64,000 nt of DNA from Lepraria neglecta (Eukaryota > Ascomycota > Lecanoromycetes > Lecanorales > Stereocaulaceae), in contig CM065647.1 in NCBI GenBank assembly GCA_033220425.1, positions 5,332,001-5,396,000 of the forward strand, read 5' to 3'. Below are positions 18,527 through 64,000 of the stretch, in pieces. The notes below the pieces were generated by a model that worked only from the letters and a program-made list of their open reading frames with translations, was not told where the DNA came from and ran no database searches. A program made the translations under genes and the position numbers. Positions within the stretch are counted from its first letter, which is position 1, and each line of letters starts with the position of its first letter.

Positions 18527-21500
18527 CTACCAGTCCCAGTCGAGTTCAGCTCTGCCGTCTTGAATGTCGGTCTGCAAGATATCGTTCAAATCCTCCGAAG
18601 ATTGCTCATCTGACTCCTCCGACATTTCAGGTTCCATACGCTTGCTGTCAGGCGAAGTGAATGGAATTGCCTTCACTTGGGCTGAGCCAAAAGATGCCTT
18701 GGCAAGGAGATGTTGAGCACTCTTATAGATGAGCTCTAATCTGCCAAGGTATCTGGGAGCAGCGTCGGGTAGCTGCCGCACAACACTCAGCAGGGTTCGG
18801 TAATTGCTTGCGTCTACTGGATCCAGATTGGCCTCTCTCTCGGATGCAGTAATCAATGCCGCGATTGCATCGTCGACTCCGTTATATGTTACACAGCAAC
18901 ACGACATTGGTATTCCGAGACGCAATAACATTGACGTTTGCTGGATTTCAGCATGTCCTAGCACCGCTGGGGTCCACCATAGTCGCTGAGACGCGGCGGT
19001 ATCCAATCGAGCTCTGATCTCGGCCGATTGCTGTCCAGAGTCAAGTCCTGCTTGCACCATGACCGTCGGCGGAGATTCAGCAAGTTGCGCAGGCAGATTG
19101 TGAGCATACTCATTGAGCGTGTTTTGGATCTCCAATCCTGGCGCAGTGGGTCTAACACCGGGAAAGAACCACGGACTCGTATCCGGATCATCCTCTTGAG
19201 AGGCCGGGGAAAATGACTCTTGTGGTGGATTTTGAGAAGAAGCCAAGACTTGTCCGTGTTCCCATGGAAATCGCTTCAAGTTGGTGCAGAATTCCACAAT
19301 TTTGTCACACTGCAGCACGTTCAAAAGAGCAGCTCTGAGCTTCGCCCAATCCTCTAAGTTCACATAAATTCGGATGAGAGCAAGACTGGTATCTACGCCA
19401 TTAAATATATCCACAAATGATACTTTGGCAGATGCCCTGGCCGGTTGCACCTCAAGGAGTCTTTTGTGGACACTTTCCATGCTCGAGAAGATGTCTCGCG
19501 CCCATCGCCGTTGGCTCAAGTTGAGTGGTCTATCATTGAATTGGCCATCAGAGGGCATCCTCCACTGCAGCCTAGGATCGGAAACGGCTTCGGCTACAGC
19601 GATGGCGTTTTCCCATATATATTCGAGCGGAGTGACAAAGTCTGTTGTTGTTATCTTGGATGTCTCAGTAGGGTACCCTGTTCTTCCCCAACTGCTAGAG
19701 AGGTATGTCGAATGAGACCATGATTCCATCAATCGCAAGTCCTGTTGCTCAAGCATCAAGTTCTCCTCTTTTGCTAACTCAGCCTTACATTCCAAGACCA
19801 AGATGGAGAAGACTTTCTTCATTTCATCATAGTTCTTACTCCCCGGGTACTCCCAGAGCAATCTCACCAGGCGACACAAATACACACCTTTCTGATCAAA
19901 GGACAGATTGTGCAAGAGCTCAGACGACAGCATCTGGTCGAGGTCAAAATCTGCGTGAATCGCGAACTCTTCTGGAGAGAGTAATCTGAGCAAACGAAAT
20001 TTGATCATGAAATGTATCCAGCGTATCAGAGGTGACACGTAGTCTGTCGAAGAGAAAAGTGTACGAAGACTGTCAAGTAGATTGAGTTCGGCGCGCCTTT
20101 GTTGGTCCTGATCAGCTCTCAGCATCCCCAACTGTGTGTGATCAATCCTCAATTTCCGTCTGTGTTTGTCGCTAGTAGGTATTGTATTATTGACCTCTTC
20201 AGAGGTATCAAGGACAGCTGTGGTGAGTAGCAATAGGAAGGGGCTCATGGAGCTCTCTAGAGGACTGCTCAAGGATAGTGAATTCAGCGAATCAGTGATC
20301 ATGTTTATTGTCTTTAGGCTAATCTCCGACTTTGTGCTTCGAAGCCATACAATCACCTTGTGAATGAAGAAAGCCATCGACACCAGATTTTCGGGTAGAG
20401 AGGTGACAATCGCTCGGATGGTTTGATCCAAGTCCTTGGAAAGCTCCTCCGAGATGTCCAGGGTAAAGACCGAATGTTTTGGGAAGCCCGTTAGGTAGTA
20501 GACTTCACAGAAATTGAAACATTCCAAGGGCATGGTAGTAGCATTGTTATGATAATCTCGGAGATTGGTCAGTACGGTTTTAACATGGTGGCCAACCCAA
20601 TCGATCCTATCAAGGAGCGAATTTGACATGACCGGGAAATCGTCAGGCAAGCACGTGACAAGTTCTAGTGGGAAAGACTGATATAGGATTAACGCCGCCG
20701 CAATGGTGAATTTTGCTTGTCGTGCAGGCATTGGATTCAGACGGACTCTTATCCATTCGTGAACTAAGGGGTGTACATAGAGTGTGGGAGTTTCAAGATT
20801 CCTCCGGATCAGTGATAGTGATGTCAAGACACCTATCGCAAGCCTGAAGCCCACATCGTCTTCCAAGTAGGCTAATTCGGTTTGAAGACTTCGAGGTAGT
20901 CGCCGCCCTTCGAATTCCAAGTTGAATGCCCAACTCGTCCTCTTTGTGGTGGCCGTGAGCAGCTCTTCAGCTATGTATGAATGGTCTAAAAATCCCAAAA
21001 GTTGAAGAATCCAGCTTGCTCGCGGCTGCATCCGCTCCAGATAATCGAGTGAAATTTCCCAAGTCGTCATTACCGAGTCAGGATATTTTGGATTTGTTTG
21101 TTTGAACCTCAAAAGCCGTTCTCGATCGACACTGCGTGGCTTAAGGTAATTGAGATACTCTTGAAGACTCATCGGCGAGTTTTCCCGTATGAAAGATGCG
21201 GCTTGGTCAATAGCAAGTGGAAAGCACTGTATCTCCTGCAGTATTTGCCTCAGGATTTGATATTCTGGATGAGATGTAGGTTCGTTCCAGTCGCTCTTGG
21301 TGCCGCTACTTTGAACCCGGAGGAAGAGCCGTTCTGCATCTAGCAAGTCCATGGCCAATAGAGCGAATCCAGAATCTGCTACTGGACCAATGACTCGGCG
21401 ATCCCGAGTGGTAATGAGTACGTTCCCCGTAGCCCCAATTGGCAGAAACTTGTGAATGTCTACTTGGATATCGTCGTAGTTGTCGAGGACAAGCAGCCAA

Positions 21501-23392
21501 TCTTCGTGACCCGGCAAAAGCAACCAATCTTTCAATAAGGCCACGCCGTCAGCTGACGTACTCGGCCCTGCAGCCGTGAATGTATCTTCGTCTCGCTCTT
21601 GAGTGTTATGTTGGACATTTCCATAGACACCGCGCACTAGTGACAGCTCTTTTGAGATTGCTTTATAGCCAGACTCAATATCGTCTTGACTGCGGGCCGA
21701 AATCCAGAAAATTGATGTTCTAGGCTTCGCTTCCCTTCGGTCGTATATGTATTTCAGTACTAATTGAGTCTTGCTAGGGGATTAAGGCAGTCAGCTATGG
21801 CGTAGGATATCAGAGTATTGAAAACAATGCTTACCCAATCCCCCCAAGCCCATGTACAGCAACTATTGGGTAGTTTGAACAATTTTGGTGCTCCTGAGCA
21901 TTGAGGTGATCATCAATCAATCTCAGTTCCGCCGTTCGTCCAAAGAATTGCGGGTTTGGAGACAAAGGTACGAAGAAATGGCCCCGCTGAGTTGCTTCGG
22001 AAGGTCCTGTAGCTGTATTTCTTACTTTCAGTGAAATCTTTACTTCACTAAGGGCCGGATATACCTGGGAGTTGTAAAGTTTCTTGATCTGTTTCGGAAG
22101 AGACCTGCTTTCCTATGCAATTCTCTGATAATCGTTTTATTTGAGCCAAAACGGGCAGGAAAAGAGCGTCCGATGGACCATTAAACTTGCAAATGCGACT
22201 GTGCGTGGCGTCTATTGGGACAAGTACCTCATCTTCGACTCCTAGTCGTGACGAGACTTCGTCGACCACCTGCTCGGCACTTCAGCGAAAGCGGCATCAT
22301 TTGCACAGGGTCCGTACCAGTGAGTTTAGCACCGGAGTTTTCCTCCTTTCATAGAAGTTAACGATAGTGAAAGAGGAATGTATTGCTCGAAATTCAACAG
22401 ACAGTTGCGACAAGACGTGGGAGTCAAGTTTGAGAGCTTCTAGCAGCTGTTTCGAGGGTCTTTGAAAAGCCAGTGCAGCAACATTTGACAATAAAGACCC
22501 AATATTTGCGCTTCTGCTACCACCATGGGGAGTTGCAAGGAACAATATCGACTTTGTAGCGGCTTCTATACCACTATAGCGGCCAGGGTTTGCGTGGGCG
22601 AGAATCAGCGCCTGAGATAGTGAGTTTGTATCTCAGACTTGCAAGATAAGATGTGTGTCATTACTTGCTTTACCACAATGCCACCTAGTGAGTGGCAGAT
22701 AAAAATCAGAGGTCGATTATTATCCTGAACACACTCAGTGACAGTCCCTAAACATGCAGAGGTACGAACCTTCCTTTCTGCTCTGTCATCTGTGATCCGC
22801 TGCAAAAGATCATGGGCAAAATCTCGTACGCCGCTAACGCCTGTATTTGGGCCCATTACGGCGGAGTTGTATCCATATACCAATATCCTTGCTTTTGGGA
22901 TTTGATCTGGAAGAAAATCTCGGAGCCACATAGGCTCGATGTTTGCTCGACTCTCTTCACGACAGGTCCAGGTGCCGTAGGCATGACCGTTCAGTCCATG
23001 GACTGCAATAATGCTAGCGCGTGTTGATTTTAGCTGCCATGAAATCAAGCAACTGCAACGGAGAATTGATGACACTGCATCTAGATGACTTACTCCAATC
23101 TTGGTTCCGTTGGTGCCGCCAGGGTAGTCAAGCCCATGAAGTCTCGTTCCACGCTCACATTGCGGTTGCCTAGTACTTTCCCATTCAGCTCCAAGGCCTT
23201 CTTGGCATCAGAGGGTGATCTGAAGGTGACTGTTGCGACCAATGGAGCGTCCTCTTCCGCTGAAGTTGGGCAGAGGGATATGCCTTGATTCGTCTTTAGG
23301 CTGTGCCTTGCAAAGAAGTGCTGGAGCTCGACATTCTGCAGGCCCGACTGTAGATTAGTCACCCTCACTGTCGACAAGTCCTTTGGCTGCAT
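18527..23392 (-). CDS. NLR-like protein: RRM-like module, SesB-like esterase, NB-ARC ATPase
   Basis: Six exons rebuilt in phase: 23094-23392, 22665-23052, 22318-22611, 22065-22269, 21835-22012, 18527-21773; introns 41, 53, 48, 52 and 61 nt; 1536 residues. Residues 1-90 look RRM-like (RNP2-like VRVTNL, RNP1-like VATVTF). An alpha/beta-hydrolase follows: VHGLNGHAYGTW near 115, the nucleophile elbow CHSLGG near 220, and LATPHGG near 250. Then NB-ARC: P-loop VHGLGGIGKTQ at about 446-457, split by an intron; Walker B WLLVLDNYDD (547-556); GNVLITTRDRR; CFPLAIDQAAS (638-647); and an MHD-like HPLVHEW (789-795). The long C-terminal half has no repeat I can name and ends in an acidic tail. Fungal SesB/NB-ARC proteins belong to the STAND class tied to heterokaryon incompatibility and programmed cell death. 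All catalytic landmarks are present, so it is probably functional. Confidence 0.85.
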
Positions 23393-24456
23393 TGTGGCTA
23401 AGCCAAATCATTGAATAAGCGTTCTGAGCTTGGCCGAGGGGATGAAAATGGAATTGGGTTGATGAGAGGTAGAATGCGACGAAGCAGCGCTGCCGCCCTC
23501 CATGTCGATGAGCCAATCATCTTGTTAGGCAGCTATGCAGGGTAGATCTTGAAATTAGCTGCACCTGCTTCTTTCGTTCCGAGTTCGTGACTACTTTTGT
23601 GGGCTTGATTTTTTTTCAGAAAGTTTATTCAAAGTATGAGTTCTATCTTAGGCAGCTATTATAATTTGCGGATGGTAGGAAGGCATAAGGAGGGAATTCT
23701 ATAGGGATGCGGAAGGGTCTCCCGGAGGCATCGTAACTTCCCTTGGGGGGTGGGGGGACAAGATAAATGGCACCCCCTCCAAAACACCTAGGCTCGCAAT
23801 GCCGCTATGGGTTTTTAACGAAAAGGCTTTTGGTACTAGAATTTTGCATGCAGAGTTGTACTTCGCAAGGTTCTTTACAACTTCCGTCTACAGGTCCAGT
23901 TTGTAACTCTTTTCGTTGTGAACTTGTGCGATTGTGAAAGCCAGCTGGGATTTTAGGGAGTGCCAATTTCTGTCTCCCGCGAGCTTCCCTATACTTCCAT
24001 CCCAACCTCTGTACAAACCAACAAGTATTGAGGCTGCATTGACTGACCAAAACTTCGGAAAGTCTATTCCTGCGAGATTCATTCGTAACTCATACTCGAT
24101 TGTGAGTGGTGCTGATATGCCGCTAAGAATATTTGCTTGACTGCTATGTAGAGATTATCAAATACCAACACGCTTATTAAGTCGTTAGAGCACATAAACT
24201 CGTAGTAAAGCAGGTCATAACATCGTGGAGCTCACGAACACCAGATCACAACCTAGCTTAGTCGTGTTCGAGCCCCAAAATGAGCTCAGATGGGCTCCAA
24301 CAAGATTATGCAAAATGGGTATCGCAGCACTCCGAACAGGCACTCAAACCACGTACTCCATACTCTTTTGAAGACGGTAATCTCATTGTGTGACGTCTAA
24401 GAAAGACGGGAGGGGCTTTAGCTTGTCTCATGGCTCCGGACCACGCTAGGCTGTAA
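23393..24456. other. Intergenic, promoter side of the NLR-like gene
   Basis: I find no further gene. A G-rich/C-rich patch lies near 23745-23775. A weak tRNA-like B-box at about 24265 is not supported by a foldable cloverleaf. Confidence 0.45.
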
Positions 24457-25128
24457 TTATGCAGTTGTGGTAGTTGTTGTAGACTTGCTCGAGTGACCGC
24501 GGAACGCAGCCAGGGCTGCGAGGATGGTAGTGGCGACGAAGAGAGCCCTGAAGGAAGGAAGAGTGTTAGCTGCAGAACTTTCATGTCGCCGGCACGAAGC
24601 ATGAAGTGTTCAGCTCCAAAGGCGTTGGGGGCGTAAAATCTAATGGTCATCACGTACCATTCAAAAGCACCAAACACAGCCGCAGCCTCGAGTATAGGGC
24701 AATAAGTGCCAACAAACGAGCAAAAGCCGCCAAGATAATCGCCATAGTAATCACCCTCACCGATGTTGTCAAGCTGGTGGTGGAGGACTGCCATGGAGAT
24801 GAATGCAGCGAACCAGAAAAGCATGGTAAGCGCGTTCAGGCCCAAGATGGCCAAAGGGTGTGCGAAGTTGGGGAAGAATCTGGGGGCCAGGGCGAGGTAG
24901 AGGAGGATGAGGACGGTCCAGACGGCGCAGAAGAGCTCGTAGGAGTCTTGGGAAGGGGTGTAGAAATCGCTGGCGACTAGGTAATGTTAGTGTAGGTTGG
25001 TAGGGGTAGGTACAGTGTGGTGCCCGTGCGAGCTTGAGAGATTGCTTACTATGGCCGGTCAATCCCAGGATGATGATGGCGAAGAGGAATTGTATGGCGC
25101 AGATGCCGAGGACGATTATGTCGAGCAT
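24457..25128 (-). CDS. MARVEL-domain membrane protein
   Basis: Exons 25050-25128, 24658-24976 and 24457-24547, all with GT-AG ends in phase (introns 73 and 110 nt), 162 residues. Four hydrophobic segments: LGICAIQFLFAIIILGL; LFCAVWTVLILLYLALAP; ALTMLFWFAAFISMAVL; and ALFVATTILAALAAF. The short loop DYLGGFCSFVGTYCP carries the cysteine pair usual before the last segment, and the protein ends in a Thr-rich tail. MARVEL proteins of this size in fungi (Nce102-like relatives) sit in the plasma membrane and organise membrane domains. A decayed MARVEL-like copy lies at 42356-42790. Confidence 0.85.
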
Positions 25129-61138: not shown

Positions 61139-63544
61139 TCATCGTCCTCTCAACCATGCTATTCCTTTCCCCATCCTAAATCTGCGCTCATTAATGACCG
61201 TGGCGCGCCTACCTTCTTGGCTGACCGGGGCAGATGCGGCCGAGTCTAATATAGGCATTTTCTCCACCAGATCCCCCAAATCTTGCGATTTCGCTCTAAG
61301 TTCGCTGTATGCTCCCTGGTCAATCAGGCCATTGTCCCAAAGATACTTATACAGTCCGATATCCGGCTCAGCAGTGGCGAGGCTATGCCCATGTAAATGA
61401 TGATACGCATAATGAGCTAAGCGCTGTCGCCAGCTGTCTATCCCCATGGTCGCGGTAAACTTTTTCTCACAGAAACAGCATGTGTTTGAGGTTGGTGGGA
61501 GTAATGTCCTGGCGAAAGAGCCGTCGATCTGGAAATGGCTTAGGCTATGCCAGAACCAGCCTGCGAGGTCTGAGTAATGGAGATGGCAGCCGAGACGGTC
61601 GAATGGGCACTCTAAGACTGGCTGGCTTTGACCGTCTTTCATACGACACCATCTTATAACGCTGTCGGCCTGCGGTGGGTTGCCGGAACTTTCAGCCAGC
61701 GCTCTTAATTGCCTCAGTATCTGATCCTCGCCCATCGTCTCCGTGACGCCCGGAGAATCCAGAGTGGCAGCATGACTACGTGCAATAACGCCTGTATAAA
61801 CGTCTTCTGGCGTTTCGACGGTTACACGTTGTCCTTGTCCATTGTGGGATAGATCTGAACCCGTAGTGGCTGCACATTGGCTCGCGCCTGCCAGGACCAG
61901 CTCTGGTGGAGCAGCGGTCTTGGGCGTACTCAAGCTAGCCCGGGCAGGTTCCATTGATACAGTGTCTTCAAGTAGTTGCAAGTCGTCTGACAGCTGTGTG
62001 ACAACCTCAGAAAGATACTCCACCTCCCGCATCTGCATTGCCGCAAGGTCGTCGCTATACAACCGGAACCTCGTCCACATATTCAAGCATCCTTCTATGA
62101 TGGACACGTACGAAGAGCCCGCGAAGGCATCGACACTGCTGTCTCGTTCCAGCTCCCTTAAAACTTTGGCTTTCGCTTTCGCCAAGCCAGCTCGCCCAGT
62201 GCCGTAGTTAATGACTCGTCCGGCGCCAATCTGATATAACACTAGTCCGAGCTCCATCACCGACGCGTACGGTGGGTGGTTGAAATCGGAAAGGCCCCCT
62301 AGAGTTGACTTTCGGTTTGTGCCAAATCCGATCGATAGGAATGGCTTTAAAACGAGCGGGTTGGCTTCAGCCCAGGGGTTGAAGTCCTCTTCTGGTTTAC
62401 AGTAAAAGCGATAATTAGACGGTCGAGGCTGAACATTGAGATCCCGCTGTACCGGCAGAAAACAGAGGTGCGAAGTTACTAGCAGTTTTGCAAGCCAAGT
62501 GATTTCGACCGGAGTAATATGCTCCACGTAAGAAGGGTCGGAAAGTATTTCGGCCAGGTTCAGAGGGCTTCGCCACGAGGTTGTGGCTTGGTGTACGATA
62601 TGCAAATCATTCGAAATAGATCGAGATTGCGGCGTTGGAATATAGCCCAACGTTTCGACTCGGCTCCTCTGGTCCGAATTACTACCTTGTCTTAGGAATC
62701 TTGGGCCATCAAGTTCCCTCAGTCGTGGAAGCTTCGCGATCATACCATCATCATCCTGCGAGTCTGGAACCCTTTTCCGAGTGTCTACCAGGAGTAACAC
62801 GGAGTCGGTCTCTGGGTTGTAAGAGTGTGATTTTTGTATGCTGAAGACGTACGACCCATCCCGAACCTCTATGTCTGCCACACTTGAGAGTTCCGCGCTG
62901 GTGTTATCCCAATGCTCCCGCAACTGAATGCTGAGTTGATGGTCCGATTCCCTTGTGTCACCTAAGCATGCCAGGCCATGATGTAGCCTATGCAGCGCCT
63001 TTCGGACGGGTAGCAAGGCCGAGTTGGCGGACTTGTTTTGTTTGGATGGTGATGGACGAGGCGAGTAGCTGTACTCCAACCTGAGTAGGCTGTGAAGGCC
63101 ATCGATGCTCGCACGAATGTGCTCTAAGCTGTCATGCAGCTTTTGCCAATCAATGATTGCCCATCTAGCCCGCCTCGGGAAGCCAGTAGACGACTGCAAC
63201 ACCTCTGGACCTGAAGCTTGCTGCTCAGGATCTCTAGTAGATGCTCCGCTGTCATACCAGTCAAGGAACTCGTGGCAGCTGTCGAGATGGCTTTGTATAT
63301 TGGCGACTTGGCGATTTACCGCTTTGACAGTTTCGACAGTCTCACCAATCTTTGCTAGTGACTGGAGATCACAATTGAGGACCTCGCCGAAGCGACACTC
63401 TTCTATTCGTAGCGTGTCTCGTATGTCCTTGAAATCTCTCCCAAATGTGCCTATACGCTGCCATACTCCGTGAAAACTGTGCAGAGCCTGGATCATAGGA
63501 GGCAGGAAAGCTCCAGCGCCCATTACATTTGACAAGGTGCTCAT
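61139..63544 (-). CDS. HeLo-like protein with C-terminal zinc-finger motifs
   Basis: Single exon of 801 residues starting MSTLSNVMGAGAFLPPMIQA. Residues 1-150 form a helical N-terminus (ALHSFHGVWQRIGTFGRDFK, then a DTLRIEECRFGEV element) of the type found at the front of fungal HET-s/HeLo-like and related STAND proteins. The middle (about 300-480) holds EITWLAKLLVTSHLCFLP, PLVLKPFLSIGFG and SVMELGLVLYQIGAG, matching the degenerate module that follows such N-termini in many fungal proteins (DUF7580-type). About 645-715 carries cysteine/histidine motifs: ECPFDRLGCHLHYSD with WHSLSHF, then TCCFCEKKF with HYAYHHLHGH. HeLo-type domains act in membrane-targeting cell death; the fused zinc fingers are unusual. 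A signalling or incompatibility role is inferred only from the N-terminus. Confidence 0.75.
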   Translation of the reverse strand: MSTLSNVMGAGAFLPPMIQALHSFHGVWQRIGTFGRDFKDIRDTLRIEECRFGEVLNCDLQSLAKIGETVETVKAVNRQVANIQSHLDSCHEFLDWYDSGASTRDPEQQASGPEVLQSSTGFPRRARWAIIDWQKLHDSLEHIRASIDGLHSLLRLEYSYSPRPSPSKQNKSANSALLPVRKALHRLHHGLACLGDTRESDHQLSIQLREHWDNTSAELSSVADIEVRDGSYVFSIQKSHSYNPETDSVLLLVDTRKRVPDSQDDDGMIAKLPRLRELDGPRFLRQGSNSDQRSRVETLGYIPTPQSRSISNDLHIVHQATTSWRSPLNLAEILSDPSYVEHITPVEITWLAKLLVTSHLCFLPVQRDLNVQPRPSNYRFYCKPEEDFNPWAEANPLVLKPFLSIGFGTNRKSTLGGLSDFNHPPYASVMELGLVLYQIGAGRVINYGTGRAGLAKAKAKVLRELERDSSVDAFAGSSYVSIIEGCLNMWTRFRLYSDDLAAMQMREVEYLSEVVTQLSDDLQLLEDTVSMEPARASLSTPKTAAPPELVLAGASQCAATTGSDLSHNGQGQRVTVETPEDVYTGVIARSHAATLDSPGVTETMGEDQILRQLRALAESSGNPPQADSVIRWCRMKDGQSQPVLECPFDRLGCHLHYSDLAGWFWHSLSHFQIDGSFARTLLPPTSNTCCFCEKKFTATMGIDSWRQRLAHYAYHHLHGHSLATAEPDIGLYKYLWDNGLIDQGAYSELRAKSQDLGDLVEKMPILDSAASAPVSQEGRRATVINERRFRMGKGIAWLRGR

Positions 63545-64000
63545 GGTGAGCGTCCCCGGTATCTATGCACGAGGGAGAGTCCTGGCCGTTAGATGAGGCT
63601 GACCGCTGGCTTTATTGTGTATTATTCATCAAAATCCCTTCGCACTTTCTCCATCTTTCCTGGTCATCAAGGTCGACCGTAAGACCGCGCGTTTTGAGAA
63701 CAGAATAGTCCGGTCAATCTGAAGCGCTGTGCAGAGAATTTTCAGGTGTCATTGAACGCTGAAGGGTTCTTGCATCTCGATCTTAAAGCAGCTCCAAGGT
63801 ATGGATCGTTCCTCGGAAAGCGCAGATAGCATAGAGCGATGAATGCTTCTCATGAAGAAACCCTATTGCTTCTCGCAAGGACAGCGAAGGTGTATATGTA
63901 GGGGTATCACACGCCCAGGCGGCCTCAACAATATCCGAGGCCGTTGGCGTTCATTTTGCCAAAGCTGTTTGAAAATCTTTCCTGGTTTATCGGGCTCCAT
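63545..64000. other. Promoter side of the HeLo-like gene, nothing else recognised
   Basis: 456 bases up to the window edge with no supported gene. Confidence 0.45.

Follow-up and report, generated by a model that had tools for sequence, protein, structure and literature searches.

The window analysed here, a stretch of 64,000 nucleotides from Lepraria neglecta, contains on its minus strand, from 23392 to 18527, a gene for an RRM-like domain, a SesB-type (DUF676) esterase, an NB-ARC domain, a DUF7779 domain and about 730 residues without an assigned family. The gene is real; the splicing given below for the whole gene is predicted from its sequence.

23094 to 23392, minus strand: exon 1, RRM-like domain (Pfam match at 23156-23368, residues 9-79)
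23014 to 23093, minus strand: intron 1, predicted, 80 nt, GTAAGT...CTAG; yields D-IIAVHGL, with an acceptor common to the paralogs
22770 to 23013, minus strand: exon 2, start of the SesB-like esterase with DIIAVHGL at residues 100-107 (DUF676 at residues 102-241; paralog matches)
22725 to 22769, minus strand: candidate 45-nt intron with GT...AG ends, in frame and stop-free
22665 to 22724, minus strand: exon 3, nucleophile elbow CHSLGG, residues 191-196 (motif position)
22612 to 22664, minus strand: intron, 53 nt, predicted (splice model)
22318 to 22611, minus strand: exon 4, esterase body (paralog matches)
22270 to 22317, minus strand: intron, 48 nt, predicted (splice model)
22065 to 22269, minus strand: exon 5, esterase end with the presumed catalytic Asp302 (VVD, 300-302) and His322 (DATHS) (motif positions)
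22007 to 22064, minus strand: intron, 58 nt, predicted (splice model)
21835 to 22006, minus strand: exon 6, NB-ARC start, P-loop GLGGIGK (Pfam and motif position)
21774 to 21834, minus strand: intron, 61 nt, predicted, within the P-loop (GLGGIG/KTQ); joins to GLGGIGKTQ
18527 to 21773, minus strand: last exon, with the remainder of the NB-ARC domain to about 21125, DUF7779 at about 20732-21040 and the C-terminal region from 18530 to about 20731

A previous sequence-only reading of this DNA had joined exon 1 to the hydrolase by a 41-nt intron (23053-23093). That form was rejected, because the 80-nt form reads TEPRL-D-IIAVHGL across the junction and so gives the family motif at a conserved acceptor. 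In a motif sweep of the SesB-like loci, window included, an AG lies exactly one base before the IIAVHGL-type motif in 27 of 42 sites, two of the 42 being no esterases. An intron 1 of 80 nt is therefore more likely, and the six-exon model proposed earlier is probably wrong at this point; it also lacks the candidate intron at 22725-22769. A simple pattern search found no branch-point-like site in this candidate, and it is possibly retained as 15 residues instead of being spliced. Since these two elements lie outside the earlier model, the predicted protein has 1506 or 1521 aa, compared with 1534 aa under the 41-nt intron.

The esterase and the NB-ARC domain agree with what had been described before. 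The esterase matches DUF676 with 29.0 bits (cut-off 20.3) and its serine elbow is intact; the roles of Asp302 and His322 are presumed from alpha/beta-hydrolases in general. It is followed by the NB-ARC domain (residues 408-641; 37.1 bits, cut-off 23.5), in which the P-loop GLGGIGKTQ (residues 420-428) and the Walker B motif WLLVLDNYDD are both intact, and by DUF7779 (residues 670-772; 34.4 bits, cut-off 27). A match to the FxSxx_TPR model is confined to the first 365 aa of the last exon.

The earlier reading could name no sensor repeat in the C-terminal region, and in agreement with it the 737 aa of this region (18530-20740) match no Pfam family among matches to E 10, show no internal repeats above the level of 20 shuffles and have no relatives in viral_contigs or genome_contigs. 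Against six-frame pieces of the SesB-like loci the sole matches were L012 and L031, both of them being the window gene, and one at E 2.5; the last exon gave just two matches among PDB sequences (E 0.54 and 0.56). The structural model of the region is all-helical and, with a pLDDT of 35.5, unreliable. C-termini without annotation are common in fungal NLRs (PMC4986451).

Exon 1 alone matches the Pfam family RRM_1 (PF00076) with 30.6 bits and the full protein does so with 25.6 bits (cut-off 20.7); a whole-genome profile scan again placed an RRM match at the position of exon 1. The AlphaFold2 model, computed from the single sequence, has the strand and helix order E-H-E-E-H-E at a mean pLDDT of 66.6, which points with modest confidence to the beta-alpha-beta-beta-alpha-beta fold of RRMs. 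In a Foldseek search with this model RRM structures came out on top (best E 5.3e-5). The list holds 50 PDB matches with E up to 0.001; the titles of 45 name an RRM, RNA-binding or UHM domain or a known RNA-binding protein, and the other five (ranks 13, 15, 19, 22 and 30) are chains of large complexes without a domain name. Structure prediction, suggested earlier as a check on the RRM-like first exon, has thus returned an RRM fold. The domain ends in VERDF-GLTTL, after which the first esterase strand follows without a linker.

Two other origins or identities of the domain were considered and rejected. TRADD-N domains are RRM-like folds by which proteins of immunity and cell death make contact with other proteins (PMC8195603); the window domain differs from them in that its sequence matches RRM_1, while PF09034 is absent among the Pfam matches to E 10 of a HMMER search whose filters drop most weak matches. 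A recent capture of a splicing-factor RRM was dismissed because the domain, searched against its own genome (E up to 10), recovers no more than itself and a single SesB-linked copy (E 1.7e-4, 36%), despite 86 stretches matched by the RRM profile scan. Single-protein searches with the RRMs of two paralogs returned only themselves. No relatives of exon 1 were found in viral_contigs.

In RRMs that bind RNA in the canonical way, aromatic residues occupy position 2 of RNP2 and positions 3 and 5 of RNP1. The window domain has R10, V52 and T54 at these sites. By eye, RNP2 position 2 is Arg in six of the seven readable copies of the domain in this genome and Thr in the seventh (it is unreadable in L042 and L060). 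RNP1 position 5 is Thr in seven of nine copies and Ala in two, and position 3 is non-aromatic in all nine, the tentative copy L065 being counted in both cases. These readings follow the HMMER alignment; MAFFT sets RNP1 of L042 elsewhere. L060 was left out of the alignment of the copies, its first half being in another frame, as were L074 and L085, whose domain halves are in different frames owing to either a short intron or a frameshift; the RNP residues of these copies were likewise read by eye. The basic residue of the first strand was seen by eye to be kept in most readable copies. The proposal that the domain is a worn-down fold agrees poorly with the non-aromatic pattern of the beta-sheet, which recurs in the paralogs and so points to constraint. 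Nevertheless, three paralog copies tested against Pfam were not recognized as RRMs, and only the window copy passes the RRM_1 cut-off, which speaks against naming the paralog copies RRMs from their sequence alone.

The RRM-like front end is not unique to the window gene: eight of 58 scanned SesB-like loci, window gene included, carry the module ahead of the esterase, and L065, whose 6.3 bits fall short of the best decoy score (10.0), adds a tentative ninth. The 58 loci are those of 63 SesB clusters for which at least 500 nt upstream were available; the five clusters with shorter flanks were set aside, and where a match starts within the esterase, 500 nt may be too little. The profile was built from three sequences, so diverged copies can be missed. 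The five copies that did not contribute to the profile reach 12.8 to 27.2 bits, compared with at most 10.0 bits in five shuffled sets, and all of these copies lie on the right strand directly upstream of an esterase. An unrelated piece of L045 also reached the decoy level of 10.0 bits.

In L051/L088 a single frame without stops holds module and esterase, and in L060 the esterase frame includes the second half of the RRM-like domain. The elbow of L051/L088 reads GHGVGG and has lost its serine. The L088 esterase is recognized only via the window esterase (28% identity, E 6.7e-13), and its RRM-esterase frame matches nothing in Pfam at E 0.01. Most readable copies join the esterase with a domain end similar to VERDF-GLTTL. 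The parts downstream of the pair differ: the window gene has NB-ARC, L089 has an NTPase of the NPHP3_N type (25.1 bits, cut-off 24.8) and ankyrin-like matches that narrowly miss their cut-offs, L011 has ankyrin repeats far above the cut-off, and L088 has a vWA domain (34 bits). As the same front pair occurs in several other genes of Lepraria neglecta, it looks like a reusable, little-described building block and not like a one-off fusion.

SesB-like proteins form the lipase/esterase class of fungal NLRs, and as in the sesB-like/NB-ARC/TPR gene Pa_2_10340 of P. anserina the SesB-type esterase of the window gene precedes the NB-ARC domain (PMC4986451). We count the DUF7779 and FxSxx_TPR-like NB-ARC core that follows as a further likeness to such NLRs; the added RRM-like front and a C-terminus without a recognized repeat family set the window gene apart. 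With SERAC1-type lipases and DUF676 esterases it shares the DUF676 match and the serine elbow, but differs in that its esterase is joined to an RRM-like domain and a STAND ATPase. A survey of fungal NLRs groups their effector ends by one domain each and names one double-domain front, C2 plus Goodbye-like, with others in the supplement (PMC9815663). That the RRM-like front is little described is borne out insofar as we found no mention of it in the literature covered here; the main texts of PMC9815663, PMC12258605, PMC4986451 and PMC12881547 do not use the word RRM.

We consider the gene to encode a fungal NLR-type (STAND) receptor in which the RRM-like domain caps the esterase for protein contact or regulation and is not a canonical RNA reader, with a probability of roughly 0.55. 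This is based on the last strand of the domain being directly continuous with strand 1 of the esterase, on the different downstream parts behind the pair and on Arg and Thr at the RNA-stacking aromatic sites of the RNP stretches. The C-terminus would hold the protein inactive and sense a non-self or damage cue, upon which the NB-ARC domain would exchange its nucleotide and oligomerise. Oligomerisation would gather the esterases and turn on lipid hydrolysis, together with cell death or membrane change. This signalling scheme is borrowed from what other fungal NLRs do. The RRM-like domain itself may act as a rigid cap for dimerisation, gating or partner docking.

An unlikely alternative is that the domain senses RNA, for example mycoviral or other foreign RNA, by means of loops or of a surface other than the canonical one and activates the adjacent esterase. 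Match and fold are genuinely of the RRM class, and the qRRMs (hnRNP H/F, RBM12, Glorund), some of the closest matches in both sequence and structure, share the fold and the basic residue of strand 1. Quasi-RRMs bind RNA through loops without canonical RNP stacking, so that RNA binding is still compatible with the missing aromatics. RNA-binding domains in animal TRADD-N immune proteins have moreover been suggested to indicate RNA stimuli (PMC8195603). On the other hand, every readable copy lacks the aromatics of both RNP signatures, which speaks against the RNA sensing considered earlier, there is no linker to the esterase, and NLR sensing is normally C-terminal (PMC4986451). hnRNP H keeps the RNP1 Phe that the window domain has lost. 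Its G-tract contacts, which we take to be F/W, R and Y, read S, R and N here in the phmmer alignment, so that only the Arg is kept. We therefore prefer a conserved cap for protein contact or regulation to an RNA-sensing or a decayed domain.

The missing linker, with its similar junction in most readable copies, and the recurrence of the module ahead of unrelated downstream domains would also suit a plain structural extension that completes an esterase subfamily without a separate regulatory role. We think this improbable, as the esterase core seems not to need the module: 50 of the 58 loci, L065 among them, have no copy above decoy level by the three-sequence profile. That exon 1 is a small RRM gene of its own, with the NLR starting later, is very improbable, even though the exon is short and its own frame stops four bases past the donor. 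The uninterrupted frame in L051/L088, the joint frame in L060 and the predicted in-frame intron 1 at a conserved acceptor place RRM-like domain and esterase in one protein. A bolder version, in which RRM-SesB is an unrecognized effector cassette of two domains in fungal immune receptors whose modified RRM reads an RNA or nucleotide ligand and gates a membrane lipase directly, appears quite doubtful to us; if true, the cassette would lead to RNA-triggered, lipid-hydrolysing cell death in fungi.

Under the preferred reading as an esterase cap, the RRM-like domain would be a concrete element that could gate the activity of the esterase. Its recurrence on SesB esterases within one genome, both in NLR genes and in genes that are apparently not NLRs, would make the pair a further unit to look for.

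In the gene model used for the domain search the minus-strand receptor gene (23392-18527) encodes a protein of 1506 aa, in which the following domains were assigned by Pfam, all above the curated cut-offs.

Domains of the predicted receptor (residues of the 1506-aa model)
Residues 9-79, RRM_1 domain
Residues 102-241, DUF676 (SesB-like esterase)
Residues 408-641, NB-ARC domain
Residues 670-772, DUF7779

The Ser elbow, the P-loop, Walker B and an HPLVH motif were all found, and Asp302 and His322 are presumably the catalytic residues of the esterase, judged by the usual family pattern. The NCBIfam profile FxSxx_TPR matched the last exon over its first 365 aa with 109.6 bits, which is below its cut-off of 300. 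Only positions 38-349 of the 830 in that profile were covered, so that its TPR end (inferred from the name) has no counterpart in the match.

The RRM-like fold which the sequence-only reading had proposed for exon 1 is supported by profile, model and structure search. Exon 1 alone scores 30.6 bits against RRM_1, and its AlphaFold2 model from the single sequence (mean pLDDT 66.6) shows the elements E8-13 H20-29 E39-41 E51-57 H60-68 E77-83. Foldseek returned 1597 PDB matches to E 10 for this model, 50 of them with E <=0.001. The titles of 45 of these 50 name RRM, RNA-binding or UHM domains or known RNA-binding proteins, including the quasi-RRMs of hnRNP H, RBM12, ESRP1 and Glorund and one UHM (SPF45), while the other five are chains of large complexes whose titles do not name the domain. 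A PDB sequence search had an hnRNP H chain as its top match (E 0.038), which by itself is not significant. By profile and predicted model, exon 1 encodes an RRM fold.

This front end is not a one-off. The genome (42.0 Mb, 11 contigs) was found to contain one other place matching the exon-1 protein (C2:3943078-3943338, 36%, E 1.7e-4), which lies directly upstream of another SesB-like stretch, and two further copies were spotted by eye upstream of SesB matches (loci L042 and L051). A profile built from three copies (window, L011, L051) was searched against 4522 six-frame pieces from the loci collected, and 10.0 bits, the highest score among five shuffled sets, served as decoy level. Five loci outside the profile exceeded that level (L062 27.2, L060 17.8, L074 14.3, L085 14.2 and L042 12.8 bits), and all five copies are on the correct strand and immediately upstream of the esterase. 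L065 is similar by eye, yet scores 6.3 bits, below the decoy level, and is regarded as tentative. SesB-like esterases are a large family in this genome, with 93 matches in 63 clusters; some of the matches contain stops, which may reflect introns or decay. The module is present in at least 8 of the 58 clusters with 500 nt of upstream sequence, the window included, plus the tentative one; this is a lower bound, as diverged copies escape a profile of three sequences and more than 500 nt may be needed where a match starts inside the esterase. Pfam recognised RRM_1 in none of three paralog copies tested. At L074 and L085 the halves of the RRM-like domain are in different frames upstream of SesB, due to a short intron or a frameshift.

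In L051/L088 the RRM-like part and the esterase share a single stop-free frame, and in L060 the same holds for the esterase and the back half of the RRM-like domain. These joint frames speak against exon 1 being a separate transcript; for the window gene the splicing itself is predicted. At L088 (G000:C5:2250300-2254300) this frame has no Pfam match at E 0.01, and its esterase was recognised through 28% identity to the window esterase (E 6.7e-13); the elbow reads GHGVGG and the Ser is absent. A vWA domain (34 bits) is found near this esterase in the next frame, and if the two are joined, which we only infer, L088 could possibly encode an RRM/dead-esterase/vWA protein. What follows downstream varies: NB-ARC in the window gene, an NPHP3_N-type NTPase with a P-loop in L089 (25.1 bits, cut-off 24.8) together with ankyrin-like matches slightly under their cut-offs, and ankyrin repeats far over cut-off in L011, a locus in which the gene's strand showed no P-loop pattern.

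The intron set of the window gene is predicted from the sequence and, like the domain layout, would point to a filamentous fungus. Exon 1 is an open frame from the ATG at 23392 to 23094, and the last exon lies within an unbroken 1084-aa frame ending at 18527. The 41-nt intron 1 (23053-23093) of the sequence-only reading keeps the frame but leaves CLISWQLKSTRAS ahead of IIAVHGL, whereas an 80-nt intron with unchanged donor and final base 23014 gives TEPRL-D-IIAVHGLNGH. In a motif sweep of the loci collected, 27 of 42 sites, window counted, have an AG exactly one base ahead of the motif and hence the same acceptor position, for which chance would give roughly one site in 16. Thirteen of the remaining 15 read through with the Asp in place. 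The last two lie outside esterases, one being the P-loop region of the window gene and the other an additional site in L035. The longer intron is accordingly the more probable one. An additional GT-AG stretch of 45 nt (22725-22769), in frame and without stops, may be intron or coding, and the predicted protein therefore has 1506 or 1521 aa.

Two neighbouring frames were recorded on the same strand.

24306-24986, minus strand: frame encoding a MARVEL membrane domain (54.6 bits), some 0.9 kb upstream of where the receptor gene starts
61139-63562, minus strand: frame of 807 aa, about 38 kb away from the receptor gene, that matches HeLo (prion-inhibition and propagation), a domain of cell-death type, with 30.0 bits against a cut-off of 23.2

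The C-terminus was described earlier as lacking a sensor repeat that could be named, and indeed Pfam matched nothing in the final 737 aa to E 10. With 43 of 68 first-look candidates scored, the last-exon search gave no paralog match past residue 385 of 1080. No relatives were found in the viral_contigs or genome_contigs sequence sets, no internal repeats rose above 20 shuffles, and the fold prediction (pLDDT 35.5) is too poor for use. An unassigned C-terminus is ordinary, since in a 2014 survey only 52% of sequences had a Pfam match C-terminal of the NOD (PMC4986451).

Full-text literature searches gave no paper joining an RNA recognition motif with a fungal NLR, an NLR esterase/NB-ARC or SERAC1. 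The pairing of RRM with NACHT, or with NB-ARC/STAND in fungi, occurs in no title or abstract start among the matches listed, which were 15 of 16 papers for NACHT and 12 of 696 for NB-ARC/STAND. In the main text of PMC9815663, PMC12258605, PMC4986451 and PMC12881547 the word RRM has no occurrence; PMC9815663 places further double-domain N-termini in its supplement.

RNA sensing and a worn-down protein-binding fold had both been considered for the front end. In the RNP consensus the aromatics that stack RNA occupy position 2 of RNP2 and positions 3 and 5 of RNP1, where the window protein has R10, V52 and T54. Over all copies, read by eye from alignments and with tentative L065 counted, RNP2 position 2 is Arg in six and Thr in one of seven readable copies (L042 and L060 being unreadable), RNP1 position 3 is non-aromatic in all nine, and RNP1 position 5 is Thr in seven of nine and Ala in two. 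A non-aromatic pattern common to these copies favours an alternative surface that is old and has been maintained over a single worn-down copy. RNA binding by the RRM-like cap would be less likely with such residues, although quasi-RRMs bind RNA without canonical stacking and it is for this reason still conceivable; that the cap senses RNA is a minority reading. Contacts with proteins are plausible only by analogy, because TRADD-N is described in PMC8195603 as an RRM-like fold serving protein contacts in immune proteins. The window gene is real and encodes a fungal SesB/NB-ARC receptor that looks ordinary apart from its RRM-like cap, which recurs in the genome, and most likely this cap regulates the esterase via protein contacts.
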